Assembly: GCA_030681475.1 (NCBI GenBank) | Contig: JAUXWT010000029.1 | Span: forward strand, 1-56,452 | Direction: 5' to 3' | Source: Bacteroidales bacterium | GTDB taxonomy: Bacteria > Bacteroidota > Bacteroidia > Bacteroidales > FEN-979 | Length of the DNA: 56,452 bases | Shown here: positions 8,863 through 49,047 of the stretch, one piece after another | How positions within the stretch are numbered: the first letter of the stretch is position 1 | Layout: each line of letters begins with the position of its first letter | The notes under the pieces: generated by a model | Databases searched by the model: none | The model's input: the letters and a program-made list of their open reading frames with translations, nothing else | What the model was told of the DNA's origin: nothing | Program-made: the position numbers and the translations under genes

Positions 8863-9686
8863 ATGTATTTATCATTTTTGTCTAATGCGGGTCCTGAAAC
8901 CGGACTTGTATCCAATTCATCCACGGTGCCCATAATGATCAGGGGTTTTTTTACAGGATCAAGCCATCCGATGATCTCAATCAATTTCATTACAGGAACA
9001 GCAATGCAGCCTGAAGTATTTTTATTGCCGACTAACACATGAACAGTAATCACGCTGCCTTTGCCTTTGACCTGATCCATATTATATTGCACGGCAATAC
9101 CGTATTTATATTTATCATCCGCCCTTTTCATCTCCTCATGTGAAACACTGGGGGCGATGTTGCTCGTTACCCATCGGTTATATTGTTTAGATGTTACCGC
9201 ATCAATCCAGTAGTCATTTGCAGAGGCTACCCAATATTCCATTTTTGTCGAAACCTTTACTCCCGGATAACCATATACAGGACCCAGGTAAAAAACACCG
9301 GTGGGTGTTTTTCCATCCCCCTCTCTTTTCTTTGTGTACGGGGCAAATCCAGCCCAGCCAATAGTGCCTGCGGTTGTAGTAAACTTTTCAACCCATTGGC
9401 CATTCTTTTTTTCGAACGTCCTGATAAGTGCCTGGTCCGATTCTATGGCTTTATTAGTAACCAACACAATCTGCCCGGAATTGCCAATCCTTGCCTGGTT
9501 CAGTGAAAGGATTTTTTCAAACCATGGGTCAACTGCTGCTGCCGGCATTCTTGCATTTGCTAAGGTATTTTTGCCTTCTAAATTAATTTCATGTTCATTA
9601 TTGGTTTTGTTTTCCGCTTTTTGTGCCGCGAAGGCAAATAAGCTGCAAAAAATGAAAACCATCGATAAATATTTTGTCCGTGCCAT
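8826..9686 (-). CDS. L,D-transpeptidase (YkuD-type), first copy
   Basis: A 286-residue periplasmic enzyme with a signal peptide ending FAFAA|Q (Q-rule) rather than a lipobox. The family features KTPTGVFYLGPVYGYPG and the catalytic ITVHVLVGNKNTSGCIAVP are present, with His and Cys in the expected order. Expected role: 3-3 crosslinking or remodelling of peptidoglycan. It shares the core with the lipoprotein copy downstream, but the two differ in membrane attachment. It lies 19 bases after the membrane/TPR gene at 9706-11025, so all three are probably one operon. Confidence 0.8.
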   Translation of the reverse strand: MARTKYLSMVFIFCSLFAFAAQKAENKTNNEHEINLEGKNTLANARMPAAAVDPWFEKILSLNQARIGNSGQIVLVTNKAIESDQALIRTFEKKNGQWVEKFTTTAGTIGWAGFAPYTKKREGDGKTPTGVFYLGPVYGYPGVKVSTKMEYWVASANDYWIDAVTSKQYNRWVTSNIAPSVSHEEMKRADDKYKYGIAVQYNMDQVKGKGSVITVHVLVGNKNTSGCIAVPVMKLIEIIGWLDPVKKPLIIMGTVDELDTSPVSGPALDKNDKYIWKKEQYTPAVN

Positions 9687-28000: not shown

Positions 28001-28515
28001 AATGGTGTAATTCCCAGGATGATCGCATCAACGCCACGGATTTGCGTAACTTCAGAAATGGTTACGGGTGATGCCGGATAAAATTCGTTTTTGGAATATA
28101 CCTGCATGTTTTTGACATAATCAACCGGGCGATTGTCGTTGTCAAGCGGAATGCGGGGGGCAGGTACAATTTCCACATTGTGAATGATTTCAGTAAACGT
28201 TGTAATGACCCTCAGTTTCGGAGTGGAACCTTGTGGTATAGCGATATATTTTCCTTTTCCCGGTAAATTTGGCATGCCCTCCTCATTGAACAGAAATGTA
28301 CCCGGAAGGTTGATATATTTCATATTTATCCCTTGAACTTCCTGGTCTTCAAGAGAAAAACCAGGTACGGTAAAGTTCACCCTGACAGAAGTAAGTTTTG
28401 AATCAACCAGGTCAAAACCAGGTTTTCCCACGATATCAGGGTAAATAAACTGCTGCGCAATTGTGCTTGTTGTTGCAATCAGTAACATAACAATGAAAAA
28501 GAAGAATTTTCTCAT
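25003..28515 (-). CDS. Gingipain-like C25 cysteine peptidase with PKD domains and T9SS signal
   Basis: A 1170-residue secreted peptidase. The start MRKFFFFIVMLL at 28515 gives a signal peptide ending STIA|Q (Q-rule). A propeptide is followed by the C25 catalytic domain (about 225-590), beginning EYIILTPTG. The catalytic dyad is visible as MLQHRDHGEYFGWG (His about residue 489) and FSINCQTGAYQ (Cys about 523), about 34 apart as in gingipains. Then come two PKD domains (FSASATNLCIETAVDFTD; DFQDAAGCPGLPVAFTDQ), two Ig-like modules and a type A sorting domain (ISPNPNDGKFSLDI ... KGVYRLKVEGKG). It is not PorU, since it carries its own sorting domain. Likely a surface or secreted endopeptidase; specificity unknown. 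Confidence 0.9.
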   Translation of the reverse strand: MRKFFFFIVMLLIATTSTIAQQFIYPDIVGKPGFDLVDSKLTSVRVNFTVPGFSLEDQEVQGINMKYINLPGTFLFNEEGMPNLPGKGKYIAIPQGSTPKLRVITTFTEIIHNVEIVPAPRIPLDNDNRPVDYVKNMQVYSKNEFYPASPVTISEVTQIRGVDAIILGITPFQYNPVTKDLLVYKDIQVKITFEGGNGHFGNDAFRSAWWDPILQDNLLNYTSLPVVNYNARLQTYGKAPLTDECEYIILTPTGPDFLAWADTIRKFRTEQGVLTKVFTVDQVGGNTVTAIEAFINNAYNTWTIKPVACLILGDYGTDGAKNIISHLYTHPASYPSFASDNKYADVNNDEMPDVVFSRITANDATQLEIMVTKFLNYERNPPVNPRFYDKPITALGWQTERWFQLCSEVVGGYFKNVHGKNPRRINKIYSGTPGTVWSTATNTNTMVNYFGPNGLNYIPSSPATLGGWDGGTATHVNQAIDSGAFMLQHRDHGEYFGWGEPSYKIANINQLTNTDLTFVFSINCQTGAYQRSSECFGEHFHRYFKNGHNSGALGLVCPSEVSYSFVNDTFVWGMYDNMWPDFMPAEGTNPASRGVLPAFGCAAGKYFLKQSNWPYNGGDKLVTYRLFHMFGDAFQVLYTEIPQPLTVTHDLEINYGDTTFAIQTNDSAFIALTCDDQILATGYGSASGPVNLTIPLIPVGSQVKVTVTKHNFYRYTDFVPVTTMALQANFSASATNLCIETAVDFTDLSSGDPISWAWIFQGGTPGTSTDQNPTGITYNQPGNHDVTLTVSKATGDPVTMIKTAYIKVTNMPVADFQDAAGCPGLPVAFTDQTNANGGTITNRTWNFGDPNSGSNNTSYDQNPTHTYNDPGTYIVSLEVKTNGVCTDIKMKEVVINSTPSAAVIPQGETSICKDVTGMIYTTDGATGATTYNWLLEPEGCGTITGNGPTGSLTLTPGFTGAFTIRVQGENECGHGVFSEELPVAVIEAPAIPEKPSGADSLDVNKTAQSNFTVAEVPGALTYAWMLAPEIAGTIIGSGGTGTVVWNNTYRGLTSVTVKAINACGESVASEEKTLNLYSTLGLSENNGIGISISPNPNDGKFSLDITSTIVSKISLTVYNTLGIVVYTDNDIRFNGKLHRNLDLSNLSKGVYRLKVEGKGVSNTINVVIGK

Positions 28516-28548
28516 GAGTCTGATTTTAAAGGTTTCAATGCAGGAGGG

Positions 28549-28597
28549 CCCTGTCAAAGTCTATCACCCTGACAGGGTGTTAGGTGGGACAAAAATA
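28549..28597 (-). promoter_or_regulatory. Promoter region of the C25 gene with inverted repeats
   Basis: On the minus strand TATTTTTG at 28597-28590 matches the -7 consensus. Between it and the start lie CACCCTG-A-CAGGGTG (28565-28579) and an alternative pair CCCTGTCA (28549-28556) / TGACAGGG (28570-28577), which could form competing hairpins in the leader. Confidence 0.4.
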
Positions 28598-28645: not shown

Positions 28646-30736
28646 TTATCGGATCACCATCAGCTTTTTTACAGTGGAAGCATCTTTGGTACTGAACTGA
28701 AAATAGAAAAGACCCTGCGTCAAATTCGATGCATCAAATGCAAATGAATGATTACCAGACAACAAACCGGGATAGGTGATGGTGTAAATCTGTAGCCCAA
28801 GGGAGTTCAATACCTTCACAGTTACATCGGAGGCATTTACCAGAGACACTGAGAGGGCAACACGGTCCTTGCAAGGATTCGGTGACAGGGAACATGTGAG
28901 GGCAGCGGTAATTTCAGGGGTTCCCACGATTGGATTGTCAATCCATACTTTGAGGGCAGGATCACCCAGGACATTGCAATCATAATGGCACCAGCGCTGG
29001 GCTCCGGGTTCATATTCTCCGGGGAGGCCAACCCAAGGCGCAGTTTTGATCTTTGACATGGTGTGCGCCGAGCCAAGTTCTGCACATGCCTGTTCGGGAT
29101 CCGGGTTATACAGGGCGCTTACAAATTCACGATGAAGGTGAGCCGAAGGACCTTCGGTTGTACCCTCGTTGAACCAACCATAGCGGGAGTTGAATATCCC
29201 GCCAACAAGAAAGTTATCGATAGAGGTAGATAATTCGGCAATGCAATCCGATTCATCAAAGGCGCCACAGATACATCCATGGGTGTACATTAGCTGGTAA
29301 TTGTGGCTAACCCCGTTAACCTGCGAAAAATTCTGATTTGTAATATCCCAGTTTGAAAGCCGCATCATATAGGTGGCATTGGCATGACCGCAATGATGAA
29401 TGAATGATTTTCCTGCATTGATCCCTGCAAGCAACTGTCCGACACCCCAGTTATATCCCGCAGCATCATATAATCTCGTAATGTTGTTTTGTGCCGATGG
29501 AATGCCATACGTAAAATATCCGTTGTCATTATGATCATCAACTAAAAGCTCAAGATAGTCCGAACCATAGGTTAAAGGGGGATCATAAAGGAATTCTGAA
29601 ACGAGGAAAGGTTTCGTCATCTCCTCAGCCACAGGGTTGCCCTGGTAGGAGACAGATTTGTGTACCATCTTTGCAAGTTCACCGGCATTGCTGAACGACA
29701 TCCGTCCCACGGAGAGTTCCGGCAGCAGATCGTCTTCGCCGGGTTCACCCCATTTGTTGTTGCCATTGGTATTCCAGGTACCGTCGAGCGCTGAAAAGTA
29801 AATGTCGGCGGGAATATTGTAATCCACGTAGCCTGATCCTGAGAAAACATAGCAGTAAAACCCCCTGTAAGGGACAACTTCGGCATCGCCCCCCAGGATC
29901 ACCTGTTCAATGCCGTTGTTCTGGTACTCACTGATGATATAGTTCCGCATTTTTTCGGGTAAATCCTGTCCGGTCACCGATCCGATTGATTCGATGGTGG
30001 CGATCTGCGTTATAAGGCCCTTCCCGTTGTAATAATTCACCAGATCCTGAAATCCGTTCTGAAACAGGGCCGGGGTAACAATGAGTATTTGGTAGTTTGT
30101 TTTCAGGGCAGTTTTGACCGGGTATTGATCCATCATCCCGGGGTTCTGCGCAAAGGACCGGACTCTTTTCAATGCGCTTTTCGAAGCAGTGAGGTTTTTA
30201 AGTGCGTTACTGGCGTTAATATCCTTTTCGGTCGCGATTTGTACAGTTACTTTTTGATAATATGATAAGGTCTGTTTTGCAGGGTTATAGATCACCGGTG
30301 TAAATGTTGACAGGGCAAATGCATAGCCATTCAAATAGGAATTGATCAGGTTACCTGTTGGGATGGCAGGATAATTGATATCTGAAAGATAGATCTGTTC
30401 ATTTTTAATAAATATTCCATCCGGTATTTTCGAGATGGGTTGCATCCATTGTTGAGGATACAATAAATAGGTTCCAGGGATCGGTGTGAGCGATTCGCCA
30501 ACAATTTTAATGGAGATGGCCTTTTCTCCCGGAGGCAGCATCATGGCAATTTGGTGGTAGGGTAACATGGGCTCGCCATGGAGCCCGGCAAGCATGGTAT
30601 TGTCGAGCGTAACAGACTGATATAGCCCGTGCTGCGCAATGTTAACCTGGGAAAAAGTAAACACTTTTTCAACATTACCCGCGAATAACGTGACAACCAG
30701 GAGGAAGGCAAGGAGTCCGGCAATTGTTTTTTTCAT
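28646..30736 (-). CDS. Second gingipain-like C25 peptidase, T9SS cargo
   Basis: A 696-residue peptidase from MKKTIAGLLAFLLVV at 30736; a longer frame starts at 30814 but would bury the signal peptide. The propeptide-like region (25-230) contains MLPPGEKAISIKIVG and YLYPQ-like strands. The C25 domain (235-620) begins YQILIVTPALFQ and carries the dyad FIHHCGHANATYMM (His about 449) and YTHGCICGAFDES (Cys about 488). Unlike its neighbour it lacks PKD domains and goes straight to a type A sorting domain (SLSPNPCKDRVALSVSL ... QGLFYFQFSTKD ... KLMVIR). The signal peptide ends LFA|G, not Q. It is divergent from, not a simple copy of, the adjacent C25 gene. Confidence 0.9.
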   Translation of the reverse strand: MKKTIAGLLAFLLVVTLFAGNVEKVFTFSQVNIAQHGLYQSVTLDNTMLAGLHGEPMLPYHQIAMMLPPGEKAISIKIVGESLTPIPGTYLLYPQQWMQPISKIPDGIFIKNEQIYLSDINYPAIPTGNLINSYLNGYAFALSTFTPVIYNPAKQTLSYYQKVTVQIATEKDINASNALKNLTASKSALKRVRSFAQNPGMMDQYPVKTALKTNYQILIVTPALFQNGFQDLVNYYNGKGLITQIATIESIGSVTGQDLPEKMRNYIISEYQNNGIEQVILGGDAEVVPYRGFYCYVFSGSGYVDYNIPADIYFSALDGTWNTNGNNKWGEPGEDDLLPELSVGRMSFSNAGELAKMVHKSVSYQGNPVAEEMTKPFLVSEFLYDPPLTYGSDYLELLVDDHNDNGYFTYGIPSAQNNITRLYDAAGYNWGVGQLLAGINAGKSFIHHCGHANATYMMRLSNWDITNQNFSQVNGVSHNYQLMYTHGCICGAFDESDCIAELSTSIDNFLVGGIFNSRYGWFNEGTTEGPSAHLHREFVSALYNPDPEQACAELGSAHTMSKIKTAPWVGLPGEYEPGAQRWCHYDCNVLGDPALKVWIDNPIVGTPEITAALTCSLSPNPCKDRVALSVSLVNASDVTVKVLNSLGLQIYTITYPGLLSGNHSFAFDASNLTQGLFYFQFSTKDASTVKKLMVIR

Positions 30737-30757
30737 GATGATGCATTTTTTGCTACA

Positions 30758-30765
30758 CAAAACTA
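30758..30765 (-). promoter_or_regulatory. -7 promoter element for the second C25 gene
   Basis: The minus strand reads TAGTTTTG (TAnnTTTG), 22 bases before the start, giving a leader of only about 15 bases. Confidence 0.4.
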
Positions 30766-30794
30766 CAAATAATATGATAATTAACAGTGTAAGA

Positions 30795-30829
30795 GGAAAA
30801 AAGAGAAAGGCCATCCCTTTGGACAGCCT
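30795..30829 (-). terminator. Probable terminator after the Omp28-like gene
   Basis: On the minus strand, GAGGCTGTCC-AAAGG-GATGGCC forms an imperfect stem (AGGC/GCCT and TCC/GGA with two internal mismatches), followed by TTTCTCTTTTTT. It lies about 32 bases after the stop at 30861. Confidence 0.5.
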
Positions 30830-38672: not shown

Positions 38673-39233
38673 CTAATTTGAGGGCATGTTTGTTAATTCC
38701 GTCGAAGATCCCAGTGTTTCCCGGCATCGGAAGCAAAGATGGGCGCTTTTCTGATCAATGTCTTCGACGTAGGTGCTGGATCTCATTACACAGTCCGGAA
38801 CATGGCAATGGATCAGGCCGAAGGTGTGCCCAAGTTCGTGAATTACCTCTTTTCTGAAACGGTCCAGCAGCAGTTGTTCATCCTTCTTCATGCCGTAACG
38901 CTCATTGTTGAACCTGTAGAGGGATGCTATTCCCGTCCGTCCGTTTAAATAGGCCTGGCCAAAAATATAGGTCAGGATGGGGATCGAAATATCCACACTG
39001 AACAACCCAAGGGTTTTCAGCGAACCGGCAGAGAATTGCGAATCCACAACCTTCAGCAAAGCATTTCCATTGTACTGCCGCCTGACAGGATCATGGAATT
39101 CACTCAGATCAAGATGTCCGTCCCTGATCCTTACCGGTAAAAGATATTCACGGCCGACATCATCTGCGATCTTCTTCAGAAAATCATTTTCAAAATATCC
39201 AAAAGGTATTAATATTATGCTCGGTTGGTTCAT
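38673..39233 (-). CDS. Archaemetzincin-family zinc metalloprotease
   Basis: A 186-residue archaemetzincin. The diagnostic zinc site is HELGHTFGLIHCHVPDCVM (three His in HExxHxxGxxH, followed by the family's CX4CVM), and a further pair CFRC near the C-terminus completes the four-Cys second zinc site. There is no signal peptide, so the enzyme is cytoplasmic, which is usual for the family (aminopeptidase-like in human AMZ proteins). It lies just downstream of the sigma-54 regulator operon on the same strand (42-base gap), so co-transcription is possible. Confidence 0.88.
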   Translation of the reverse strand: MNQPSIILIPFGYFENDFLKKIADDVGREYLLPVRIRDGHLDLSEFHDPVRRQYNGNALLKVVDSQFSAGSLKTLGLFSVDISIPILTYIFGQAYLNGRTGIASLYRFNNERYGMKKDEQLLLDRFRKEVIHELGHTFGLIHCHVPDCVMRSSTYVEDIDQKSAHLCFRCRETLGSSTELTNMPSN

Positions 39234-39275: not shown

Positions 39276-40616
39276 TTAACCTGAAGGTTTCAATCCGTAT
39301 TTCTTGATCTTCTTGTACAGGGTCACCCTGTCCACCTGCAGCGCTTTTGCCGACCGGGAAATGTTCCATCGGTATTTATTGAGAATCTGGTTGACATGAA
39401 TTTTTTCATGGTCATCGAGACTTTCAACAGTACTGTCGATCAGATCTTTACCAAGGGGGAGATCTTTCAGCCTGACCTCCTTCCCGTTGCCGATGACAAT
39501 TGCCCGCTCGATCATGTTCTCAAGCTCGCGGACATTTCCCGGGAAATCAAACTCCTCCAGTCTTTTCAAGGCAGCAGTATCAATCGTTATTTGAGGCCGG
39601 TTCATCGTAGTACAATACTTTTTAATGAAATAATCCACAAGAAGGGGAATATCTTCAATTCTTTCACGCAAAGGCGGAATATGAATATTCACCACGTTCA
39701 ACCGGTAATACAGATCTTCACGGAAAGTACCCTTCTCCACCATGCTTTTCAAATCCCTGTTAGTGGCGCAAATGACCCTGAAATCTGACCTGATCTCTTT
39801 ATTCCCGCCCACCCGGATGAAATTTTTGGATTCCAGTACCCGTAACAATTCTACCTGCATTTTTGAAGAAATAGTTGCAATTTCATCAAGAAAAATGGTA
39901 CCGCCGTCGGCCATTTCAAACCGCCCTTTCCGGTTATACATGGCTCCGGTAAACGCCCCTTTTTCGTGTCCGAAGAGTTCACTCTCCAGCAAGCTCTCAG
40001 TCAGGGCGCCACAATGCACGCTGACAAGGGGAAAGAACTTGCGCTGTGAATTGGAATGAATCGCTTTGGCAATGAGCTCTTTACCTGTTCCGCTCTCCCC
40101 TGTAATGATTACTGAAGAATCGGACTGTGCGACATGTTCAACCTGTTTCAGCACCTTCATCATCGGCTTGCTTTTCCCGATAAGATCTTCCACGTTTTCC
40201 AGGGCGATGACCTTGTTCCTCAATACATCATTCTCTTCGGCAAGGAAAATTTGTTTTGTGGCATTCCTTATCAGGTGTGAAAGGTCATCCGGATCAAAGG
40301 GCTTGGTAATATAGTCGAACGCTCCGTCTTTTAAAGCCTGTACCGCAGTATCCACGGTCGCGAAGGCGGTCATCATGATCACGACCGCATCTTTATTCAG
40401 GGATTTTATCCTTCGCAGCATTTCAAGTCCGTCCATCCCGGGCATTTTTATATCAGCCAGGATGATGTCAAAATCACCGGAATCAAGCATTGAAAGTGTT
40501 TTCTTTGCATTTTCGGCACACTCAACACGGTAACCATCTTCAATAAACCAGTTGGACAAGGAATCTCTTACGGATTCTTCATCATCAACGATCAATAATG
40601 AAATCTGTCTTGACAT
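39276..40616 (-). CDS. Sigma-54-dependent response regulator (NtrC/AtoC type)
   Basis: A 446-residue regulator with three domains. The receiver domain is residues 1-120, phospho-acceptor Asp55 in IILADIKMPG. The AAA+ domain is about 145-380, with Walker A VIITGESGTGKELIAKA, the sigma-54 contact loop HEKGAFTGAMYNRKGRFE and Walker B GGTIFLDEI. A Fis-type helix-turn-helix closes the protein (NISRSAKALQVDRVTLYKKI). It activates sigma-54 promoters when phosphorylated. It starts two bases after the stop of the upstream histidine kinase, so the kinases are its probable partners. It is the last gene of the seven-gene redox/sensor operon. Confidence 0.93.
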   Translation of the reverse strand: MSRQISLLIVDDEESVRDSLSNWFIEDGYRVECAENAKKTLSMLDSGDFDIILADIKMPGMDGLEMLRRIKSLNKDAVVIMMTAFATVDTAVQALKDGAFDYITKPFDPDDLSHLIRNATKQIFLAEENDVLRNKVIALENVEDLIGKSKPMMKVLKQVEHVAQSDSSVIITGESGTGKELIAKAIHSNSQRKFFPLVSVHCGALTESLLESELFGHEKGAFTGAMYNRKGRFEMADGGTIFLDEIATISSKMQVELLRVLESKNFIRVGGNKEIRSDFRVICATNRDLKSMVEKGTFREDLYYRLNVVNIHIPPLRERIEDIPLLVDYFIKKYCTTMNRPQITIDTAALKRLEEFDFPGNVRELENMIERAIVIGNGKEVRLKDLPLGKDLIDSTVESLDDHEKIHVNQILNKYRWNISRSAKALQVDRVTLYKKIKKYGLKPSG

Positions 40617-40617
40617 T

Positions 40618-42297
40618 TTATTCTCCTTTTATCCTTTTCAGGGGTAATTTGATGGAGAGGGTCGTTCCCTTTCCGGGCACTGATCTGACTTCCACGGAAC
40701 CTTTGTGGCTTTGAATAATTCCGTGAACAATTGCGAGTCCCAGGCCAATTCCGCTTACATTTTGTTTTGTTGAAAAGAATGGTTCAAAAACATGCGGCAT
40801 GTCGTTCGATGCAATTCCTGAGCCATTGTCGGTAATTTCCAGTTGAATGGTTTGATCATCCGGATTCCATGTATTCATGATGATCTCCCCGTTTTCAGAA
40901 ACAGCCTCGTATGCATTTACCAGTATGGCCACACAAGCTTGTTTAATCTGGTTCGGACAGCAATAGACCAGATCAGAACCGGCAGAAAAATTCTTCAAAA
41001 AAATAATTCCTGAGATGATGATCGAATGGGACATCAGAATATATGTTTCGTGTAAAATTTCATGCAGGTGACATTCCTCAAAGTCAGCCTGGTCCTTTCG
41101 TGAAAAATCCAGCAATCCTTTGACAATATCTCCGCACCGCTTGGTTTCGGTTTCAATGAGCTTTAAATGTTTCAGGATTGTATCCTTTTTTGCGGGATCC
41201 CACCCTTCCTGTGTCAGTTGTTTATGTACCAGTTTTGTATAGATCAAAATGCCGGACAACGGGTTGTTGATTTCGTGGGCCACGGATAATGAAAGTTTCC
41301 CAAGGGATGCTATCTTTTCAATATGGATCAGTTCGTTCTGGACTTTTCCAAGTTCTTCCGACTTTTTCTGAACCTTGAATTCCAATTGTTGTGACCAGTT
41401 GTGCAACTCTTCGTTTGCTGACTGAAGTTTATCAAGCATGTTGTTGAATGCCTGGGAGACCATCCGCAGGTCGTCAAGCTGGCCGGGGGTAATTGCCAAC
41501 CTTGTACTCGTGTCTCCGCCGGCAACGGCTTCACTCGCCTCTATGATTGCTGTCAATGGTTTCTTTACTTTTATCCTTGTAAAGAAGATTATTAATACCA
41601 GCAATAAAAGTGTCGAAAATGATGCCAGGATGTACGATTTTTCGAGACCTGCATCCAGTTGTTCCAAGGGGATTTTTATCACAAAATAGCCCAGGACATC
41701 TTCACTGGCCGGGTGTGCGTGACAGGAACTTTGATAACATGATGGTTCATTTATTATTGGAGACCTTATCAGGAGGTGCCTGCAGTTGTCGCGCTTTTTG
41801 TTCATTTTACATTCATTGTTGACATCCACGATCCTGAAGCCTTTTTCTTTCCTGGGAAACAATACGTTTAGATTTGTATGACAATCTTTACAATTGGGAT
41901 TGTTATGGCCGGCAGAATCTGCAGAAAAGGAGGTATAAACAAGATTGTCTTCACTGTCATAGATGTTTACATCCTTGATGTTGGGCATTTTATTAATGAT
42001 ATTGAGCATCTTCTGCAGAGCCATATTATCATTTTCAAGCATTGACCGGTACAATGCTCCTTCCACCAGTAAACCAACGTTGTTTCCGGTCTGCCTGATA
42101 GAACTTTTCATATATTCTTCGTTGATCGATTTAAAAATGATCCCAAACGATACAAAAAGGAAAACTGCCAGGATGGTTATGATATAGACCACCTGGCCGT
42201 AAATGGAAGACCGGAACTTATGAATCCTTGCGGTTAATGAGTTCTCCGCCAGGACTTTAGGGGATGGTTTCTTCAATAACTTTATCATGTGTTTCAT
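40618..42297 (-). CDS. Histidine kinase with periplasmic heme-c-type sensor (copy 2)
   Basis: A 559-residue membrane sensor. After a first helix (VVYIITILAVFLFVSFGIIF, about 35-55) the periplasmic domain contains HNNPNCKDCHTN (CX2CH) and PSCYQSSCHAH (CX4CH), two likely covalent heme-c sites, plus CKMNKKRDNCRH between them. The second helix is ILASFSTLLLLVLIIFFT (about 222-240). HAMP, a coiled coil, the H-box SVAHEINNPLSGILIYTKL, and ATPase boxes QACVAILVNAYEA, EITDNGSGI and GIGLGLAIVHGI follow. It is a paralogue of the gene upstream with the same architecture and overlaps its 3' end by up to 41 bases; an alternative start at 42288 would shorten this. The signal sensed may be redox state or a gas ligand (inference). 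Confidence 0.9.
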   Translation of the reverse strand: MKHMIKLLKKPSPKVLAENSLTARIHKFRSSIYGQVVYIITILAVFLFVSFGIIFKSINEEYMKSSIRQTGNNVGLLVEGALYRSMLENDNMALQKMLNIINKMPNIKDVNIYDSEDNLVYTSFSADSAGHNNPNCKDCHTNLNVLFPRKEKGFRIVDVNNECKMNKKRDNCRHLLIRSPIINEPSCYQSSCHAHPASEDVLGYFVIKIPLEQLDAGLEKSYILASFSTLLLLVLIIFFTRIKVKKPLTAIIEASEAVAGGDTSTRLAITPGQLDDLRMVSQAFNNMLDKLQSANEELHNWSQQLEFKVQKKSEELGKVQNELIHIEKIASLGKLSLSVAHEINNPLSGILIYTKLVHKQLTQEGWDPAKKDTILKHLKLIETETKRCGDIVKGLLDFSRKDQADFEECHLHEILHETYILMSHSIIISGIIFLKNFSAGSDLVYCCPNQIKQACVAILVNAYEAVSENGEIIMNTWNPDDQTIQLEITDNGSGIASNDMPHVFEPFFSTKQNVSGIGLGLAIVHGIIQSHKGSVEVRSVPGKGTTLSIKLPLKRIKGE

Positions 42298-43963
42298 TAA
42301 CAGTCATCAAAGGCAGGGTTATTGAAACGATTGTGCCTTTTCCCAGTTCAGATTTTACATCGATATTTCCTCTGTGGCTTTGCACGATTCCATGGACAAT
42401 GGCCAATCCGAGACCAATCCCGCTTATATTCCGCTTTGTTGAAAAGAAGGGTTCCAGAATATGGGAGAGGTCTTCCGGGTCAATTCCCAACCCGTTGTCA
42501 ATGATCTCAAGTTTTATAGTCATGTCGTCCGGATTGGATGTCCTCAGAATGATCTCCCCGTTTTCGAGTACCGCTTCAGAGGCATTGACAAGTATGGCCA
42601 CACATGCCTGTTTTATCTGGTTCGGGCTGCAATGGATCAAGTCAGATGAGGCGTTGAAATCTTTGATAAAATGGATGTTGGCAATCTGCATAGGGTGAGC
42701 CATCAGATCATAAGTTTCGTCAAGAATTTCATAGAGGTGCCTGGAAATAAAATGATTTTGGTCTGTCCGTGAAAAATCCAGTAATCCCTTCACAATATCC
42801 CCGCATCTTTTTGTTTCGGATTCGATCAGTTTTAAATGGCGTAAAATGGACTCCTTTTTTGATTCATCGAGATCAAGGTTGCTCAATTGTTTGTAAGCCA
42901 GCTTTGAATAGGTCAATATTCCGGACAGGGGGTTGTTGATCTCGTGGGCAACGGATAATGATAATTTTCCGAGAGAAGCGATCCGCTCAATTTGTATCAG
43001 TTCGTTTTGTACGCCCCCCAGTTCCTCGGTTTTTTGCTGGACCTTGTATTCGAGCTGTTGCGACCAGTTCTGCAACTCAACCGAGGCTGCCTCCAGGTTG
43101 TCGAGCATGTCATTTAATGCCTGGGAAACCATGCGCATATCGTCAAGTTGATTTTCCGTTATCTGCAGCCTCGTACTCTTGTCCCCTTTTGTAACAGATT
43201 CGCTGGCTTTGATTATCGCCGTCAGTGGCTTTTTAATTTGTTTCCTTGTGAACCAGATCAAAAAGGCAACAAGCAAAAAAGTCATTAATGTCGCCAACAG
43301 GAAAAAATCCCTGAGAGATTTGCTGAGCGCCGCATCAAGGTTTTCCAGCGGGATCCTGATGACAAGGTAGCCGAGCACATCATCGCTTGCCTTATGGGCA
43401 TGACATGAACTTTGATAGCATGATTTATCATTTAAGATCGGAGACCTGATCAACAGGTGCCTGTAACTGGTGTCCCTATTGCTCATCTTGCATTCGCTGT
43501 CAACATCGATGATTCGATAAGCTTTTTCTTTGCGGGGAAACATCGTTTTAATATCCTGGTGGCACATCTTGCAATTCGGATTGTTGTGTCCTTCCGATGA
43601 AGCGGAAAAGGAGGAATAGACCAGGTTGTTGTTAGCATCGTACATGTTCACGTCATCAATTCCCGCCATGGTGTTGATGATGTCGAGTGTACTTTGCAGG
43701 GCAACTTTATCGTTTGCAAGCATAGACCGGTATAACGCCCCTTCGACGAGCAGCCCGATGTTGTTCCCGTTTTGCCGGACAACATTTTTCATATAATCCT
43801 CGTTTACCGATCTGAAAATGATCCCGAACGATGCGAAAAGCAATCCTGACAATATGGTAATGACATAGATCACCTGCCCGTAGATCGAAGTCCGGAACCC
43901 GAGATACTTTTTCAGAGTCTTGGTCCTTGGCAGGAATTTTTGGATGTTGCTGAATAAGGCCAT
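42257..43963 (-). CDS. Histidine kinase with periplasmic heme-c-type sensor (copy 1)
   Basis: From the ATG at 43963, preceded by AAGAGG at good spacing, 568 residues. The architecture equals copy 2: first helix VIYVITILSGLLFASFGIIF, periplasmic sensor with HNNPNCKMCHQD (CX2CH) and KSCYQSSCHAHKA (CX4CH), second helix FFLLATLMTFLLVAFLIWFT, HAMP, coiled coil, H-box SVAHEINNPLSGILTYSKL, and ATPase boxes QACVAILVNASEA, EIIDNGLGI, GIGLGLAIVHGI. Both H-boxes and ATP sites look intact, so both copies should be active kinases and could form heterodimers. A longer frame from 44014 exists, but the ribosome site favours 43963. Confidence 0.9.
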   Translation of the reverse strand: MALFSNIQKFLPRTKTLKKYLGFRTSIYGQVIYVITILSGLLFASFGIIFRSVNEDYMKNVVRQNGNNIGLLVEGALYRSMLANDKVALQSTLDIINTMAGIDDVNMYDANNNLVYSSFSASSEGHNNPNCKMCHQDIKTMFPRKEKAYRIIDVDSECKMSNRDTSYRHLLIRSPILNDKSCYQSSCHAHKASDDVLGYLVIRIPLENLDAALSKSLRDFFLLATLMTFLLVAFLIWFTRKQIKKPLTAIIKASESVTKGDKSTRLQITENQLDDMRMVSQALNDMLDNLEAASVELQNWSQQLEYKVQQKTEELGGVQNELIQIERIASLGKLSLSVAHEINNPLSGILTYSKLAYKQLSNLDLDESKKESILRHLKLIESETKRCGDIVKGLLDFSRTDQNHFISRHLYEILDETYDLMAHPMQIANIHFIKDFNASSDLIHCSPNQIKQACVAILVNASEAVLENGEIILRTSNPDDMTIKLEIIDNGLGIDPEDLSHILEPFFSTKRNISGIGLGLAIVHGIVQSHRGNIDVKSELGKGTIVSITLPLMTVNETHDKVIEETIP

Positions 43964-44050
43964 GTCAGAAAACCTCTTGGTGAACAACTCGCCTGTCAGG
44001 CCGGAAAGATACAAAAAACCATTGATAAATCACCAATGCTTTTGTGTCTC

Positions 44051-44770
44051 TCATGAGGTGTGTTCCAGGAAATCCTGCTGGAAATCCTGCCAAACTTCCA
44101 TGGGTAACTGCGAAAGTGTGTTGTCTCGTAATTCACCACCATCCTGCAGGATGACCATGGGGGACCCGGAAGAATATTTTTTCATCGAAACGGCCAGGAA
44201 ATCCTTGAACCGCTGAAGCTCTTCCTTCGACCAGTTTGTCGCTTCTTCAGCAAGATAACATGCCCTTGTTTCGGCGATCCAGTTCGACGGCTTGATCCTG
44301 TACAGCCATCCTTTCGCGTAAGGGTCCTCATTCAAGAGCTCCGGGTTGTCTTCAAGTTCTGAATTAGTGTCCCTGATCTCGCCTGATATCGGGGAGGTTA
44401 TCCTGAGATGTTTGCCTCCCTGTGTGAGCTCGGTAAGCAGTTCACCCTTCATGATCTTTTCTCCCGGCCTCTTCAGGTTGCTGAATTGCACCTCCCCGGT
44501 AATATGCTGTAACAGATCATCCAACCCGACTTTGGCGGTACCGCTTTCTTCAAGGTGAGACCAGGTGTGATTCCTGTTATATAATATCCCCTGCGGAATT
44601 CTCAGGATATTGACCGATAAATTTTCCAGTATCCGCTTCACCTGTTTCAACGGCCTTACCTGCTTGGACGAAAATTTCCAGAAGCCTATCAGGATCAACA
44701 AATAACAAACGACAAAAATATATTCGACTCCCTTTGTGTCGAAAATATCTATCCTGCTGAAACCATCCAT
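44051..44770 (-). CDS. Membrane-anchored GcvH-like domain protein
   Basis: A 239-residue protein: one membrane helix (VEYIFVVCYLLILIGFWKF, about 15-33) followed by basic residues, placing the C-terminal part in the cytoplasm. Residues 58-165 are a GcvH-like (lipoyl-carrier) domain: GILYNRNHTWSHLEESGTAK, VGLDDLLQHITG, and ELEDNPELLNEDPYAKGWL match glycine-cleavage H protein. The lipoyl site is abnormal: the ESxKxxxDxxxPVSG hairpin is replaced by TQGGKHLRITSPISG, with Lys120 one residue nearer the Pro. A C-terminal segment (VILQDGGELRDNTLSQL ... WQDFQQDF) is shared with the PBP-GcvH protein of the same operon. It overlaps the NrfD-like gene by 22 bases. Role unknown. Confidence 0.85.
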   Translation of the reverse strand: MDGFSRIDIFDTKGVEYIFVVCYLLILIGFWKFSSKQVRPLKQVKRILENLSVNILRIPQGILYNRNHTWSHLEESGTAKVGLDDLLQHITGEVQFSNLKRPGEKIMKGELLTELTQGGKHLRITSPISGEIRDTNSELEDNPELLNEDPYAKGWLYRIKPSNWIAETRACYLAEEATNWSKEELQRFKDFLAVSMKKYSSGSPMVILQDGGELRDNTLSQLPMEVWQDFQQDFLEHTS

Positions 44771-46014
44771 TTTTTTCTCCTTTCTTCTTTTTGTTTGAAC
44801 GACTTTTTTTGTTCTTCACCGGTTACCCACGAAGGTGATTCGCGGTACACCGGCATTCTTCTGATAATCCAGCGGAAAACCAGGATCTGAACGAATATTA
44901 CTGCCACGCTTACAACAATCTCCATCCACGTGGGAAAATGAATTGAATGGGCATACCATTGGTAGGCAATAGTCGAAACATTCATCCGGTTCAATATTAT
45001 GCCTACGACAGACATTATTGCCGCAATGCGAACAGCCGTAAGTTGACGCTGCCTGTACCCGTAAAGGAACATCATGCAAGGAAGTAGTACAAAACCCAGT
45101 ATTTCCATCATATACCAGTATCCCCACGAAGTATTCAGGTAGGCGAGGTTTTTGCCGTGCAGGAAGACCAGTATTGTCATAAAGAAATAGACAAACATGC
45201 TGACGGCAGACACCCTGGCAAGTCCCAGGACAATATTCCTGTGCGAACTCTTATGCATGAACGACATATTCCGCCAGAAAACCTTCTGGTTTATCGTTTC
45301 CATGATAATTACCAGTGAAAGCCCGGCAAAAATGCTGGATATGAAAAATAGTATAGGGATGAACTCGGAATACCACAAGGGATGGATCTTTGGCTTTGCC
45401 ATAAGGAATAGTGCCCCCAGGCCGGATTGGTGCAGGGTTGAGAGGGCGATCCCAAAAATGACCGCCGCCAGGGTCATGGAAGCAAATACTTTGCGAAGTC
45501 GCTTCAGGTTTGCCCACTCCGCTATGGTCGGAAAGAATTCGGCAAATAACGAACCCATATAAAGCAGGAAGTGCCAAGCAACAAGAAATAGTACCGAACT
45601 GATCCCGAATGAGTTGCCAATGATCGGGTTGATTACTTTCCAGGGGCGTCCGAGGTCAAGCAACAGCGCCCCCGCGTAAAACATATAGGAAAGAAGCGCA
45701 TATAGTACGGTAGCCCTGACGATCGGGCGGTATTTTTCCAGTCCGAGGATGTACACCATAAAGGTTACGACAAATCCTCCCCCGGCAAATGCCACCCCGG
45801 TAATGACATTAAAATTGATCCAGAGCCCCCATGGCGCATCCTGGGAGCCATGAATGACCGAACCCAGTCCATCCTTGAAACGAAATACCAGGATCACTGC
45901 CGCGACAAGAATGGTCAGTGCGGAAATAATATTGAAGGGTGTGATGATTTTCCCCTTGGGTTTTAATTCACGCAAGATGAATTTTAAAAAACCTGTACTT
46001 TGTTCACTCTTCAT
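44749..46014 (-). CDS. NrfD/HybB-family quinone-interacting membrane subunit
   Basis: A 421-residue integral membrane protein with about ten helices, of the NrfD/PsrC/HybB family that carries electrons between menaquinone and a periplasmic ferredoxin-like subunit. Typical segments are APWGLWINFNVITGVAFAGG (early quinone-site region), LLDLGRPWKVINPI, SSVLFLVAWHFLLYMGSL, LSTLHQSGLGALFLMAKPK and MNVSTIAYQWYAHSIHFPTW. The closest type by appearance is HybB, the partner of HybA, and a HybA-like gene lies just upstream with an 11-base overlap. No hydrogenase, nitrite or polysulfide reductase catalytic subunit is encoded nearby. Confidence 0.88.
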   Translation of the reverse strand: MKSEQSTGFLKFILRELKPKGKIITPFNIISALTILVAAVILVFRFKDGLGSVIHGSQDAPWGLWINFNVITGVAFAGGGFVVTFMVYILGLEKYRPIVRATVLYALLSYMFYAGALLLDLGRPWKVINPIIGNSFGISSVLFLVAWHFLLYMGSLFAEFFPTIAEWANLKRLRKVFASMTLAAVIFGIALSTLHQSGLGALFLMAKPKIHPLWYSEFIPILFFISSIFAGLSLVIIMETINQKVFWRNMSFMHKSSHRNIVLGLARVSAVSMFVYFFMTILVFLHGKNLAYLNTSWGYWYMMEILGFVLLPCMMFLYGYRQRQLTAVRIAAIMSVVGIILNRMNVSTIAYQWYAHSIHFPTWMEIVVSVAVIFVQILVFRWIIRRMPVYRESPSWVTGEEQKKSFKQKEERRKKWMVSAG

Positions 46015-46885
46015 GACCGTCCTCCTTTCCCTTAAGAATGTTGCTCCTTCGTTCTTTGAAAGAATTGTGAAGGCCCAGCAGAAAAGCAGGCCAAAGGATC
46101 AGCACGGCAGGCACTGAGTAGAGAAAAGTCTTGTTGTATTCAGGATACGAAGTCGTTCCGAGATCCTTTCTTAAACCCAGTTCTTCAAACGGCACCGAAG
46201 CAAGATACAACAGGCCCGTTCCCCCGACTTCATGTTCCCCGTAAATGTTGTGGTTGTATTTTTCCGGTTCAGCGTAGATCCGGGTCCTGGCAAGTTCAAT
46301 TAGATCTTTCCTTTTCCCGAACGTGAGCGCTTCCTGCGGACAGACCTCAACGCAAGCCGGTACGTCCCCCTTCATCAGTTCCTCATAACACATCCTGCAT
46401 TTCTGAATTTTTGGATTCGGGCTGTCGAATTCAAATTTCGGGATGTCGAACGGACAGGATATCATGCAGGACCTGCAACCCATGCATTTCTCCTCCCGCC
46501 AGATCACCGGACCTTCATCGGTTTTCAACATGGCCTTTGTGAGGCATGCCGATGCACAGGCAGGTTCATTACAGTGGTTGCATGCCTTCCTGATATGCTG
46601 CGGTCCTTTTGACGTGTTGTAAGCATTCACGGCAACACGTTGCTTATCAGATGTTGTTCTCACAACTCCCGGTACCGGTGCGTCAGTCGGGTACGGTAAT
46701 TCGTATTTGTCAGAACAGGCATATTCACAGCTCTGGCAGCCAGAGCAGAGTGTTGAATCATAGAGAATACCGTTGAATTCCACTGCGTTCTTTTCTTCCC
46801 GTGCCGCACCAAAACTTTTACCCACAGTCAGTGATATTCCGGCAACTCCCAGCGTTTTTAGAAAGCCTCGTCGGTTGATAGCCAT
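46004..46885 (-). CDS. Tat-exported HybA-like ferredoxin with four [4Fe-4S] sites
   Basis: From ATG 46885, 293 residues. The start MAINRRGFLKTLGVAGISL is a twin-arginine signal; the longer frame to 47047 would bury it. Four cysteine groups for [4Fe-4S] clusters are visible: CSGCQSCEYAC, CNHCNEPACASAC, CMGCRSCMISC and CRMCYEELMKGDVPACVEVC. A C-terminal membrane anchor follows (TFLYSVPAVLILWPAFLLGL, about 255-275), as in HybA. The protein should face the periplasm and exchange electrons with the NrfD-like subunit encoded next. The physiological donor or acceptor is not encoded in the window. Confidence 0.9.
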   Translation of the reverse strand: MAINRRGFLKTLGVAGISLTVGKSFGAAREEKNAVEFNGILYDSTLCSGCQSCEYACSDKYELPYPTDAPVPGVVRTTSDKQRVAVNAYNTSKGPQHIRKACNHCNEPACASACLTKAMLKTDEGPVIWREEKCMGCRSCMISCPFDIPKFEFDSPNPKIQKCRMCYEELMKGDVPACVEVCPQEALTFGKRKDLIELARTRIYAEPEKYNHNIYGEHEVGGTGLLYLASVPFEELGLRKDLGTTSYPEYNKTFLYSVPAVLILWPAFLLGLHNSFKERRSNILKGKEDGHEE

Positions 46886-46934
46886 AAAGTATGATTTTAG
46901 GTTAGTGATTATTATGAATTTAACTAATCGGGAT

Positions 46935-48668
46935 CTATCTGGACCTGTCAATAAAATTGACCTGGAAATCTTCCCACTCCTTGGGACCGAGTTCTGAAAG
47001 TACGCCATCCCTGAGTTCGCCGCCGTCCTGAAGGATAACATGGGCAAATTCAGGGTTGTTGGATTTTAATGTTTCTGCAATGAAATCCTTTAACCGGACA
47101 AACTCCTTTTTTAACCACTCCCTGTATTGGCCTGCCATGGTCAAAAACCGGGTCTCACGCAACCAGTTTGCAGGTTCAATGATATAAATCCAGCCATCGG
47201 AATAAGGAGATGAATTTAATGCGGAGGAATTTGTTAACAGGTCTGTGTTCTGAGCCATGATCATTCCCGAAACCGGGGCGTTGATCCTTAATTGCTTGCC
47301 GCATTGGATGATGGAAAGGACCTGGTCGCCCATTTTTACCCTCTCCCCGGGATTTTTCATTTTTATGCCGGTCAGTGGACCTGTGGTATGTTGAAGGAAA
47401 TCATCTATCCCGACCCTGACAAGGCCGTTTTTTTCCATGAAGGCCCACATGTGTGTCTTATTAAAATAGAGACCTTGCGGTACCTTGACAGAACTTACAT
47501 CAAACACTGCCGGCGGTACAGCGTTAAGGTTCAACATTTCAGCCTGTTTTTGCCGTTTATCCCTTTTCAAAGCGTCGGCGATCATGAATACGATGACAAA
47601 TGGTATCAAAGCAAGTAATACCAAGGCAAACAGGGAAACTGAATTTAGTTTGCCGGTAAATATTCCTGAAGTTGATGATTTTGCCAACAATGGCTGACTG
47701 CCGGTTAACAGGGCTGCTTTTTCCGCTTGCCTTGCGCTGTAAGCAAAATTTTTATAACCCACGGGATAGAGGAATCGCTGGCCGTCGGTTATAACCCAGG
47801 TAAGAAATGCAAGTTCACTTTTATTTGATGGTTTCACCGAAGAGACGGAATAAATGGCCCTGCATAAATCCTTGGGGTACTTTCCGATCCAGACACCACG
47901 TGTGAACGCATTCAGGTCGCCATAGATCTTCTCGAAATAATCCATCTGTCCGTTACTGTTTTTATCAATGGGAAGCAATTTGATGTTCTCAACGATTTTT
48001 TGATTGGCAGGACCCAGCAAGTCGTTCAAATAGCAAAAACCAATGCCAAAAGGATCTTTTTGTACAGATGAAATAATTTCATCCCTGGTTCCCCTCCCGG
48101 CACCGTCCAACACAGCTTCACTTGTTTTCAGGTACCGGGCTACATTTGAAAAGATTGACCGGTCATTGACCAGATAGAAACGTACAGGGTCCGTCTGCTT
48201 GTTTCCCAGGAGCATACCCCAGGTTTGTTCTACCGGATGGCTGATGGTTTTAGAAAATTCGCCTGATGAAACCCCGTTCGAATAAAGCCTGTCCATGAAG
48301 GGATTTTTAGAACTGACAAATGGAACTACAGCTTCATGGCCAATTACCATTTTCCAGATGGCTTTATCATCAAGGCCTGCAAAATACTTATCTGAAATAA
48401 ATGACAGGTCAGTGCCGCTTGTTAATACTGTTGATTGACTGAAGTCATCCACGCGGACAACCTCAATGTTCATCTCCGGGTGAAGCTTACAATACTCGCC
48501 TGCCCACGTGGCTGTATATTGGTACAAATCCGGAGTGCTGAAAACACGGAAGGAATGTTCAGCAACGTCCTTAGTTCCTTTTATTGTTCTTTCACTGCTT
48601 CTGCAAAAACTTGTTTCGCTGTAAAAGAACAAGAATAACCCGATGAATAAGAATACCTTGTTTTTCAT
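46935..48668 (-). CDS. PstS-like periplasmic binding protein fused to a GcvH-like domain
   Basis: A 577-residue fusion, first gene of the operon. A signal peptide (1-22) is followed by a PstS/PBP-like substrate-binding domain (about 35-320; LDGAGRGTRDEIISSVQKDP and FGIGFCYLNDL resemble the PstS 'SGT' and 'IGY' blocks). Residues 235-246 (DKNSNGQMDYFE) form a textbook EF-hand calcium loop. One membrane helix (344-365) is followed by a cytoplasmic GcvH-like domain (398-500; GLYFNKTHMWAFMEKNG, SPYSDGWIYIIEPANW) in which the lipoyl hairpin reads IIQCGKQLRINAPVSG, Lys458. The C-terminus (VILQDGGELRDGVLSEL ... WEDFQ) is shared with the protein at 44051-44770. Possibly a sensor or tether that links a periplasmic ligand to the redox module. 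Confidence 0.85.
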   Translation of the reverse strand: MKNKVFLFIGLFLFFYSETSFCRSSERTIKGTKDVAEHSFRVFSTPDLYQYTATWAGEYCKLHPEMNIEVVRVDDFSQSTVLTSGTDLSFISDKYFAGLDDKAIWKMVIGHEAVVPFVSSKNPFMDRLYSNGVSSGEFSKTISHPVEQTWGMLLGNKQTDPVRFYLVNDRSIFSNVARYLKTSEAVLDGAGRGTRDEIISSVQKDPFGIGFCYLNDLLGPANQKIVENIKLLPIDKNSNGQMDYFEKIYGDLNAFTRGVWIGKYPKDLCRAIYSVSSVKPSNKSELAFLTWVITDGQRFLYPVGYKNFAYSARQAEKAALLTGSQPLLAKSSTSGIFTGKLNSVSLFALVLLALIPFVIVFMIADALKRDKRQKQAEMLNLNAVPPAVFDVSSVKVPQGLYFNKTHMWAFMEKNGLVRVGIDDFLQHTTGPLTGIKMKNPGERVKMGDQVLSIIQCGKQLRINAPVSGMIMAQNTDLLTNSSALNSSPYSDGWIYIIEPANWLRETRFLTMAGQYREWLKKEFVRLKDFIAETLKSNNPEFAHVILQDGGELRDGVLSELGPKEWEDFQVNFIDRSR

Positions 48669-49047
48669 TGCTGTAAGATTTAACTTGATTAATTATTATT
48701 GATCTGCCCATACCTGATCTGAATTGGATGAGATCACGGCTGTTTATTATTCAAAACCTGTACCAAACAAAAAAACACGACGTATCGTGTTGTATTTTAA
48801 TAAATTAGAAAATAAAACGATGAAAAAACTTACAGTGTCAAGTGTTTAATTATTCAACAGTATTTCATTGAACCAGGGTTAAAGATCACATGATCAGGTG
48901 GTTTGGTGGCGCTGTATATTTTCACAACACCTGTTGAGTAATTCAACACTCAATAAAATCTGTTATTTAATTGTATGATTTTGAGAACCTCCAGGATTAA
49001 TGACCCATGGATATGTTGGCGCGGGGGACAGGTCCGAAGCAGTTATG
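48669..49047. promoter_or_regulatory. Upstream region of the redox/sensor operon with inverted repeats
   Basis: This 379-base AT-rich gap has no credible gene. At 48774-48791 lies AACACGA-CGTA-TCGTGTT, a 7-base inverted repeat about 106 bases before the operon start, a candidate operator. A second, weaker inverted repeat, GTTGA-N5-TCAAC, lies near 48930-48950. I found neither a TAnnTTTG element nor a GG-N10-GC sigma-54 core on the minus strand. Confidence 0.35.

Follow-up and report, generated by a model that had tools for sequence, protein, structure and literature searches.

We analyzed a 56,452-nucleotide (nt) stretch of DNA from a Bacteroidales bacterium (contig JAUXWT010000029.1 of GenBank assembly GCA_030681475.1; the whole stretch is called the window below). 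It carries an operon of eight minus-strand genes, running from position 48668 to 38673, that encode in order a periplasmic-binding protein domain fused to a GcvH-like domain (PBP-GcvH), a ferredoxin with a twin-arginine translocation (Tat) signal, an NrfD-type membrane protein, a GcvH-like protein anchored by a transmembrane (TM) helix, two histidine kinases with heme-c motifs (HK1 and HK2), a sigma-54 response regulator and an archaemetzincin. The genes, and the putative regulatory elements upstream of gene 1, are as follows.

46935-48668, minus strand: gene 1, PBP-GcvH, 577 amino acids (Pfam and NCBIfam; PstS-like by profile).
46004-46885, minus strand: gene 2, HmcB/HybA-like ferredoxin, 293 amino acids, with 16 Cys and a Tat signal (NCBIfam; Tat motif and Cys count).
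44749-46014, minus strand: gene 3, HmcC/HybB-like NrfD-type membrane protein, 421 amino acids (NCBIfam; Pfam NrfD, E 2.3e-12).
44051-44770, minus strand: gene 4, TM-anchored GcvH-like protein, 239 amino acids (Pfam GCV_H; TM score 1.95).
42257-43963, minus strand: gene 5, histidine kinase HK1, 568 amino acids (Pfam; heme-c motifs).
40618-42297, minus strand: gene 6, histidine kinase HK2, 559 amino acids (Pfam; heme-c motifs).
39276-40616, minus strand: gene 7, NtrC/AtoC-type sigma-54 response regulator, 446 amino acids, with GAFTGA (Pfam and NCBIfam).
38673-39233, minus strand: gene 8, archaemetzincin (M54), 186 amino acids (NCBIfam archmetzin).
48752-48765, minus strand: sigma-54-type promoter core TGGTAC-N5-TTG, 5' of gene 1 (sequence pattern).
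48842-48860, minus strand: upstream dyad 1, CTGTTGAATAATTAAACAC, 76 nt from the sigma-54 core, a candidate regulator site (sequence pattern).
48931-48949, minus strand: upstream dyad 2, GTGTTGAATTACTCAACAG, 165 nt from the sigma-54 core, a candidate regulator site (sequence pattern).

An initial annotation of this DNA had described genes 1 to 7 (39276-48668, minus strand) as one operon. All seven are present on the same strand and lie close together, overlapping slightly or standing no more than 87 nt apart: 49 nt separate the PBP-GcvH and ferredoxin genes, the ferredoxin and NrfD genes overlap by 11 nt and the NrfD gene and gene 4 by 22 nt, gene 4 and HK1 are 87 nt apart, HK1 and HK2 overlap by 41 nt, and a single nucleotide lies between HK2 and the regulator gene. 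The start of HK1 was taken as the ATG at 43963; in the list of open reading frames (ORFs) it begins at a TTG at 44014. The seven-gene description nevertheless left out the archaemetzincin gene, which begins 42 nt past the regulator gene on the same strand and is conserved at that place, and therefore the operon extends to 38673. Domains were assigned with Pfam and NCBIfam. Pfam recognizes GCV_H in gene 1 (E 1.1e-21) and gene 4 (E 7.4e-25), 4Fe-4S and NrfD domains in the redox pair, HisKA/HATPase in both kinases, and Response_reg, Sigma54_activat and HTH_8 in the regulator.

The conservation of the locus was surveyed in Bacteroidota, using 395 genomes and 295 genomes of the window's order, each drawn from a larger group; gene 1 was searched for and the neighborhoods of its matches were then fetched. 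Near full-length PBP-GcvH occurs in 29 of the 295 genomes of the order (its own included), in 18 families, a count that leaves out the partial matches in genomes G411 and G523. Eight more genomes of the order have gene 1 without the PBP part, and PBP-less forms are also found in other classes. Co-occurrence across genomes, the check suggested in the initial annotation, is borne out: the gene order recurs in dozens of loci, which argues against chance. By tblastn, with the window excluded, all seven families are present at 22 of 38 loci of the order and all but the PBP at 6; the others have PBP, GcvH, kinase, regulator and archaemetzincin (4 loci), GcvH, kinase, regulator and archaemetzincin (2), PBP, GcvH, ferredoxin and NrfD (2), all but NrfD (1) or PBP alone (1). 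Contig ends truncate two of these loci, L097 and L129, and L130 contains a fragment. Of 39 stretches from outside the order, some of which share one genome or were fetched for a canonical GcvH or as further flank, 23 have GcvH, ferredoxin, NrfD, kinase, regulator and archaemetzincin, 10 have GcvH, ferredoxin and NrfD, 2 have these three with a kinase, 2 have GcvH alone, 1 has GcvH and ferredoxin, and 1 has none. The GcvH entries in these tblastn counts are loose, because queries with a receiver domain fused to GcvH (REC-GcvH) also match the regulator.

The usual form outside the order consists of a TM-anchored GcvH, a ferredoxin without a Tat signal, NrfD and a soluble GcvH with an N-terminal four-Cys motif, followed by a kinase, the regulator and the archaemetzincin. 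The form seen in the window, in which the ferredoxin has a Tat signal and the second GcvH is anchored by a TM helix, was also found outside the class, at loci L057 and L072. Among 65 NrfD-containing rows, 26 combine a Tat ferredoxin with a TM-anchored GcvH lacking the Cys motif and 18 combine a non-Tat ferredoxin with the Cys-motif soluble GcvH, and neither of the opposite pairings was seen; 7 further rows belong to an HmcA-like set, and each of the other 14 lacks either a called ferredoxin, a GcvH after NrfD or the motif. The last group includes locus L052, where no GcvH stands behind NrfD and the TM helix belongs to the kinase. The rows are related and therefore do not represent 44 independent events, but the predicted membrane side of the ferredoxin and the type of GcvH change together. 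The four-Cys motif of the soluble GcvH (GcvHb; L051:12092-12835 and others) could bind a metal or a cluster, and the GcvHb copies of L051 and L060 have no Pfam match at all.

We then considered what the GcvH-like domains might do. Gene 1 encodes a signal peptide, a PstS-like periplasmic-binding domain that contains an EF-hand-like loop, a single TM helix at about residues 345-365 (by eye), a GcvH-like domain at residues 400-521 and a conserved C-terminal QDGG tail; gene 4 encodes a TM anchor, a GcvH-like domain without the lipoyl lysine and again a terminal QDGG. Judged by eye from the TM helix and the flanking charges, both GcvH domains are predicted to be cytoplasmic, in agreement with the initial annotation. 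The N-terminal half of gene 1 has no Pfam match on its own; Pfam PBP_like_2 matches this half in 21 of 28 family members, the window copy not being among them, and a family profile finds solved PstS-type proteins (best E 2.7e-11). The EF-hand-like loop inside this domain (window positions 47649-48668) is kept in 26 of the 28 members.

The window's own genome has three GCV_H matches, namely genes 1 and 4 and a true GcvH on another contig that retains the lipoyl lysine. The TIGR00527 scores of the two window domains (75.2 and 61.8 bits) are both below the NCBI cut-off of 115.85 bits. The lipoyl site is Gly in both window proteins, according to ungapped phmmer alignments to solved GcvH and to the MAFFT alignment. 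At the lipoyl column of the latter, Lys is rare among the GcvH-like rows, both in the order (1 of 69) and outside it (3 of 72), and is present in 4 of 5 rows of the canonical-like kind. A few rows carry a wrong label, such as one from L105 that aligns by its receiver part only, or have a gap at this column, as in L129. The residue directly after the lipoyl position is Lys in 63 of the 69 rows of the order. The Lys in QCGKQLRINAP and QGGKHLRITSP was considered as the lipoyl lysine and rejected, the alignments placing it one residue off. In lipoyl domains, a shift of the lysine by one residue blocks lipoylation. A C-terminal DGG tail is found in 24 of 30 PBP-GcvH, 19 of 20 GcvH1, 32 of 45 GcvH2, 18 of 19 GcvHb and 10 of 10 GcvHa rows, in 0 of 7 REC-GcvH and 4 of 14 TM-anchored REC-GcvH rows, and not in the canonical row.

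These results bear on the idea, put forward in the initial annotation, that a lipoyl-like cytoplasmic carrier shuttles reducing power, its GcvH dithiol/disulfide exchanging electrons with the ferredoxin and NrfD and hence with menaquinone. The GCV_H domains are indeed well preserved and predicted to lie in the cytoplasm, where lipoylation occurs, and the neighboring lysine is widely conserved; outside the order, the non-Tat ferredoxin and four-Cys second GcvH would suit cytoplasmic electron transfer. However, the lysine that should carry the lipoyl group is missing nearly throughout, and the window ferredoxin, having a Tat signal, should face the side of the membrane opposite the GcvH domains. 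In addition, five genomes keep gene 1 while lacking any match to the window NrfD (see below). We therefore find the label of carrier unsupported, since the domains lack the lipoyl lysine; they do not appear to be standard lipoyl carriers, and the shuttle seems to us unlikely.

Next, we examined the signalling genes. HK1 has the motifs CKMCH and CYQSSCH in its predicted periplasmic part, and HK2 has CKDCH and CYQSSCH. Counting kinase rows of more than 200 bits and at least 441 amino acids, with shorter or weaker kinases dropped, CxxCH is present in 62 of 62 and CxxCH plus CxxxxCH in 60 of 62; as in c-heme sensor kinases, CxxCH lies in the N-terminal sensor part. The heme-c motifs of the initial annotation are thus confirmed, and so is the presence of two kinases, although its pairing of them is not general: HK1 and HK2 group with each other in the tree (support 98/92), which indicates a local tandem duplication, and most relatives carry one kinase. 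A profile of 30 sensors finds the c-heme sensor 3b42 at E 3.3e-5; we take this structure to be GSU0935. Pfam Mcp40H-20 matches 15 of the 30 sensors and Tll0287-like 4 of 30 (E up to 0.1), and neither matches HK1 of the window. The regulator has the AAA+ domain with GAFTGA that characterizes sigma-54 enhancer-binding proteins, and GAFTGA is shared by 53 of the 58 family members that are 431-469 amino acids long.

In PMC12889525, c-heme Cache domains are defined, with Geobacter GSU0582 and GSU0935 included, and one signalling-type c-heme Cache protein is reported to show properties of a nitric oxide (NO) sensor. Given that the sensor family of the kinases resembles that group, the operon could be a nitrosative-stress switch, in which NO-sensing c-heme kinases turn on genes that protect quinone electrons or reroute them under NO. 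Yet the Pfam resemblance just described is weak, the kinases have two heme motifs of which one is CxxxxCH, and no NO-detoxifying gene was recognized in the operon, so that we consider such a switch improbable.

The promoter region was compared among the loci. The core TGGYAY-N5-TTG was found within 150 nt of gene 1 at 44 of 65 loci (34 of 38 in the order, the window included, and 10 of 27 outside) versus 1 of 429 control upstream regions; this core was chosen after viewing the sites from a stricter scan and then counted. The stricter scan, which used the sigma-54 consensus with a score of at least 13, picked out 17 of the 65 targets and also 12 of 425 control regions. When up to 4 mismatches are allowed, a dyad near GTGTTGAATAATTCAACAC is present at 31 of the 38 loci of the order, from which its consensus was derived, at 10 of the 27 outside and in 11 of 420 controls. 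The dyads often lie 74-77 and 162-165 nt from the core, and the window has both. The combined pattern of core and dyad was sought in 37 genomes that have the system. It matched 20 times, in 18 genomes; this promoter accounts for 18 of the matches and other places for 2, whereas the backwards pattern, used as a control, had no match. The window's own genome has a single combined match, at this operon. The dyad alone, with at most 3 mismatches, occurs there at four places (two for the backwards control), of which two are at this promoter, one is on contig C102 (L157) inside an ORF with a secretion tail, and the other is on contig C8. The operon is therefore the only clear target in its own genome, although promoters with other spacings or weaker sites would have been missed.

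The ferredoxin and NrfD genes were compared with known quinone complexes. The best NCBIfam families are HmcB for gene 2 (307.6 bits; cut-off 420) and HmcC for gene 3 (372.3 bits; cut-off 550), with HybA (203.3 bits) and HybB (209.8 bits) also under their cut-offs; against the Qrc models the pair reaches 61.7 bits for QrcD and 46.9 bits for QrcC. The pair is thus of the quinone type that had been proposed, with HmcB/HmcC rather than HybA/HybB as its nearest named family, and it indeed has no catalytic subunit in the operon. No multiheme gene was found near the operon, and no frame beyond window position 30000 has two or more CxxCH motifs. The NrfD protein adjoins a ferredoxin with up to four clusters, as in the quinone modules of the NrfD/PsrC type. 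A phmmer search at E 0.01 found no solved relative on which quinone binding could be checked. PMC6303296 describes this family, and presents NrfD units of the HmcC, HybB and QrcD kind as quinone-interacting and likely electrogenic; menaquinone chemistry is therefore likely for the window pair.

Paralogous arrangements also occur in the phylum. One is an HmcABC-like set with a Tat ferredoxin, NrfD, a multiheme cytochrome (best family HmcA, 61.6 bits), a kinase, a REC-GcvH and a TM-anchored REC-GcvH. Such receiver fusions stand beside the heme-c kinase and the HmcABC-like set at L060 (15037-17047), L064, L065 and L066, and the L060 kinase has a weak zinc-ribbon-like match under the cut-off. Another is a QrcABCD-like set (L193:11918-18385), with QrcA (232 bits) and QrcD (589.5 bits) over and QrcB (325.8 bits) and QrcC (368.5 bits) below their cut-offs, flanked by two GcvH-like proteins, with a divergent kinase, archaemetzincin and regulator. 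Some loci have c554-like cytochromes. At the other extreme, five genomes that are 95-97% complete have a locus with gene 1, the kinase, the regulator and the archaemetzincin from which the redox pair is missing, and the window NrfD query found no match genome-wide in any of the five; G603 (L102, a locus without the redox pair) and G517 (L120, without NrfD) stood outside that search. What persists is a core of kinase, regulator and archaemetzincin, which in most cases is accompanied by a GcvH-like protein, while the quinone complex comes in three kinds or is absent.

The operon might instead encode a respiratory enzyme in the first place. The pair would then be a menaquinone reductase or menaquinol oxidase of the HmcBC type that receives electrons from soluble multiheme cytochromes; the kinases and the regulator would provide ordinary local control, and the GcvH-like proteins would serve in assembly. 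The families of the pair, the HmcA-like cytochrome, the QrcABCD-like set and the c554-like cytochromes point in this direction. Genomes that keep gene 1 and the signalling genes without an NrfD match, and kinase-regulator-archaemetzincin sets standing apart from redox genes at seven loci (see below), argue the other way, and we regard this explanation as rather doubtful. The larger sets also raise the question of whether the operon is what is left of a bigger Hmc or Qrc operon after loss of the catalytic or cytochrome subunit, an outcome for which the initial annotation had allowed. One counter-indication named in that annotation, a known partner in relatives, is half borne out, since the paralogous arrangements carry an HmcA-like cytochrome or QrcA/QrcB. 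The other, a broken remnant, fails for this gene set: most of the related loci fetched have the set with no catalytic subunit, this being the common form, with a recurring promoter, and at L060 and L064 the non-Tat form stands next to the HmcABC-like one. We rejected the remnant on this synteny and consider it highly improbable.

The archaemetzincin has the zinc site HELGHTFGLIH and a Cys cluster, and no signal peptide by eye. Its NCBIfam archmetzin score of 149.1 bits is above the cut-off of 145, and it is the only M54 match in its genome. The family motif is given in PMC4681839. Of the 51 family members with more than 150 amino acids, 48 retain the zinc site HExxHxxGxxH and a Cys after it. 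M54 matches were found in 57 of the 395 Bacteroidota genomes. The strong ones (E at most 1e-19) lie at 42 places in 34 genomes, and 26 of them are within 13 kb of a GcvH-like match. After the neighborhoods of the other 16 had been fetched, tblastn placed a kinase (at least 150 bits) and a regulator (at least 250 bits) of the operon's families within 6 kb of all 42. At seven loci among these 16 neighborhoods, the kinase, regulator and archaemetzincin occur without GcvH, ferredoxin and NrfD. Five of the seven genomes have GcvH, ferredoxin and NrfD elsewhere (L043, L049, L050, L055 and L059), and the other two, G184 and G373, had no strong GcvH-like match in the gene 1 search. Weaker M54 matches (E above 1e-19; about 32 rows), which lie outside the count of 42, are mostly in the window's class, many in frames of about 290-335 amino acids; the genomes include G025, G316 and G170.

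On balance, we lean towards the view that the operon is a self-inducing, c-heme-sensing envelope redox module in which the non-lipoylated GcvH-like domains are adaptors between the sensor and the quinone complex. The sequence itself shows the gene set and its synteny, the heme motifs, the loss of the lipoyl lysine and the architecture of the promoter, with gene set and promoter well supported; the adaptor role and the cellular task are inferred. According to this proposal, the periplasmic kinase domains with their two c-type heme motifs would respond to a redox condition or to a ligand of the heme, for which nitric oxide is a candidate, and one or both kinases would phosphorylate the NtrC-type regulator. 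The regulator may then bind the two upstream dyads and drive the operon's own sigma-54 promoter. Induction would raise the HmcB/HmcC-like ferredoxin-NrfD unit, which would exchange electrons with menaquinone, together with the two membrane-anchored GcvH-like proteins and the cytosolic archaemetzincin. The GcvH-like domains would act as protein-protein adaptors on the cytoplasmic face, tying the quinone complex to the sensor system, and in the window's order they may also couple the periplasmic PstS-like ligand-binding domain to that system. The persistence of the core beside a quinone complex that varies or is absent, together with the fusion of GcvH to receiver domains and the loss of the lipoyl lysine, leads us to favor such an adaptor or signalling output over a carrier.

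Several points weigh against this proposal. The adaptor role is drawn from gene linkage and fusions, and all of the support is computational. Predicted structures scored a pLDDT of 34.2 for PBP-GcvH (two rows, from the window and L004) and 43.6 for the kinase sensor (three rows, window and L004 proteins), too low to be of use. Within the 3b42 match, no single stretch does better than E 0.015, and the window kinase sensor searched alone gave just a CusS match at E 0.088. The strict promoter core is missing from 21 of the 65 loci, and the combined pattern is absent from 19 of the 37 genomes with the system, even at their own operon, so that other targets could be missed; for the dyad, the independent count is that outside the order only. 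The ferredoxin is predicted to be periplasmic here and cytoplasmic in most relatives outside the order. An NrfD lying upside down in those relatives was considered and set aside, as the loop charges suggest no inversion (a crude estimate, with 14 hydropathy peaks versus 10 expected helices), and a single mechanism does not yet seem to explain how the ferredoxin could switch sides without it. Finally, the conserved lysine one residue from the lipoyl position leaves room for modification by an unusual ligase.

We also considered a broader, more tentative version, which is possible but which we would not call probable. Non-lipoylated GcvH-like domains may be an unrecognized kind of cytoplasmic adaptor for signalling, or an output under receiver control, that serves quinone-linked membrane complexes. 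Acting through REC-GcvH fusions or the sigma-54 regulator, heme-c kinases would set the activity of NrfD-type complexes (HmcBC, HmcABC and Qrc) by means of these domains, and the archaemetzincin would be a dedicated proteolytic partner. Each part belongs to a known family. Among the papers listed by targeted searches of the openly licensed literature, none described the gene set, an adaptor role of GcvH-like proteins or the linkage to archaemetzincin.

To our knowledge, the functions of enzyme-less NrfD/HmcBC units, of GcvH-like proteins without a working lysine and of bacterial archaemetzincins are all open. The operon ties the three together, and it supplies a constant genomic partner for the archaemetzincin in these bacteria. 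Its compact promoter and regulator make both signal and output directly testable. In annotation, a GCV_H domain alone should not earn such proteins a glycine cleavage name.

Elsewhere in the window, we observed neighboring genes for two C25-type peptidases, both with a type IX secretion tail (25003-28557 and 28646-30814), tandem overlapping YkuD-type L,D-transpeptidase-like genes (8071-9686) and a protein with a HipA C-terminal domain (5729-6760).

Finally, the operon can be compared with known systems. Of the NCBIfam models, those of the Hmc complex of sulfate reducers (HmcABCDEF) are nearest to the window ferredoxin and NrfD, in HmcB and HmcC; however, the pair falls below the cut-offs, the operon has no multiheme HmcA, and it adds GcvH-like proteins, heme kinases and an archaemetzincin. 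With Qrc (QrcABCD), the similarity lies in a Qrc-like arrangement of related genomes that shares the GcvH-like, kinase, regulator and archaemetzincin families, whereas the window pair itself scores far lower and is without QrcA or QrcB. Hydrogenase-2 has the ferredoxin/NrfD type in common through HybA/HybB, but again the window pair is below the cut-off and no hydrogenase genes adjoin it. The two GcvH-like proteins resemble the H protein of glycine cleavage in the GCV_H domain, over most of its length, and differ from it in the missing lipoyl lysine, the TM anchor and the C-terminal QDGG tail. The kinases share with the c-heme Cache sensors (GSU0935/GSU0582, sCache_heme) a c-heme motif in the sensor and the family-profile match to 3b42, but they have a second, upstream CxxCH, together with CxxxxCH at the usual place.

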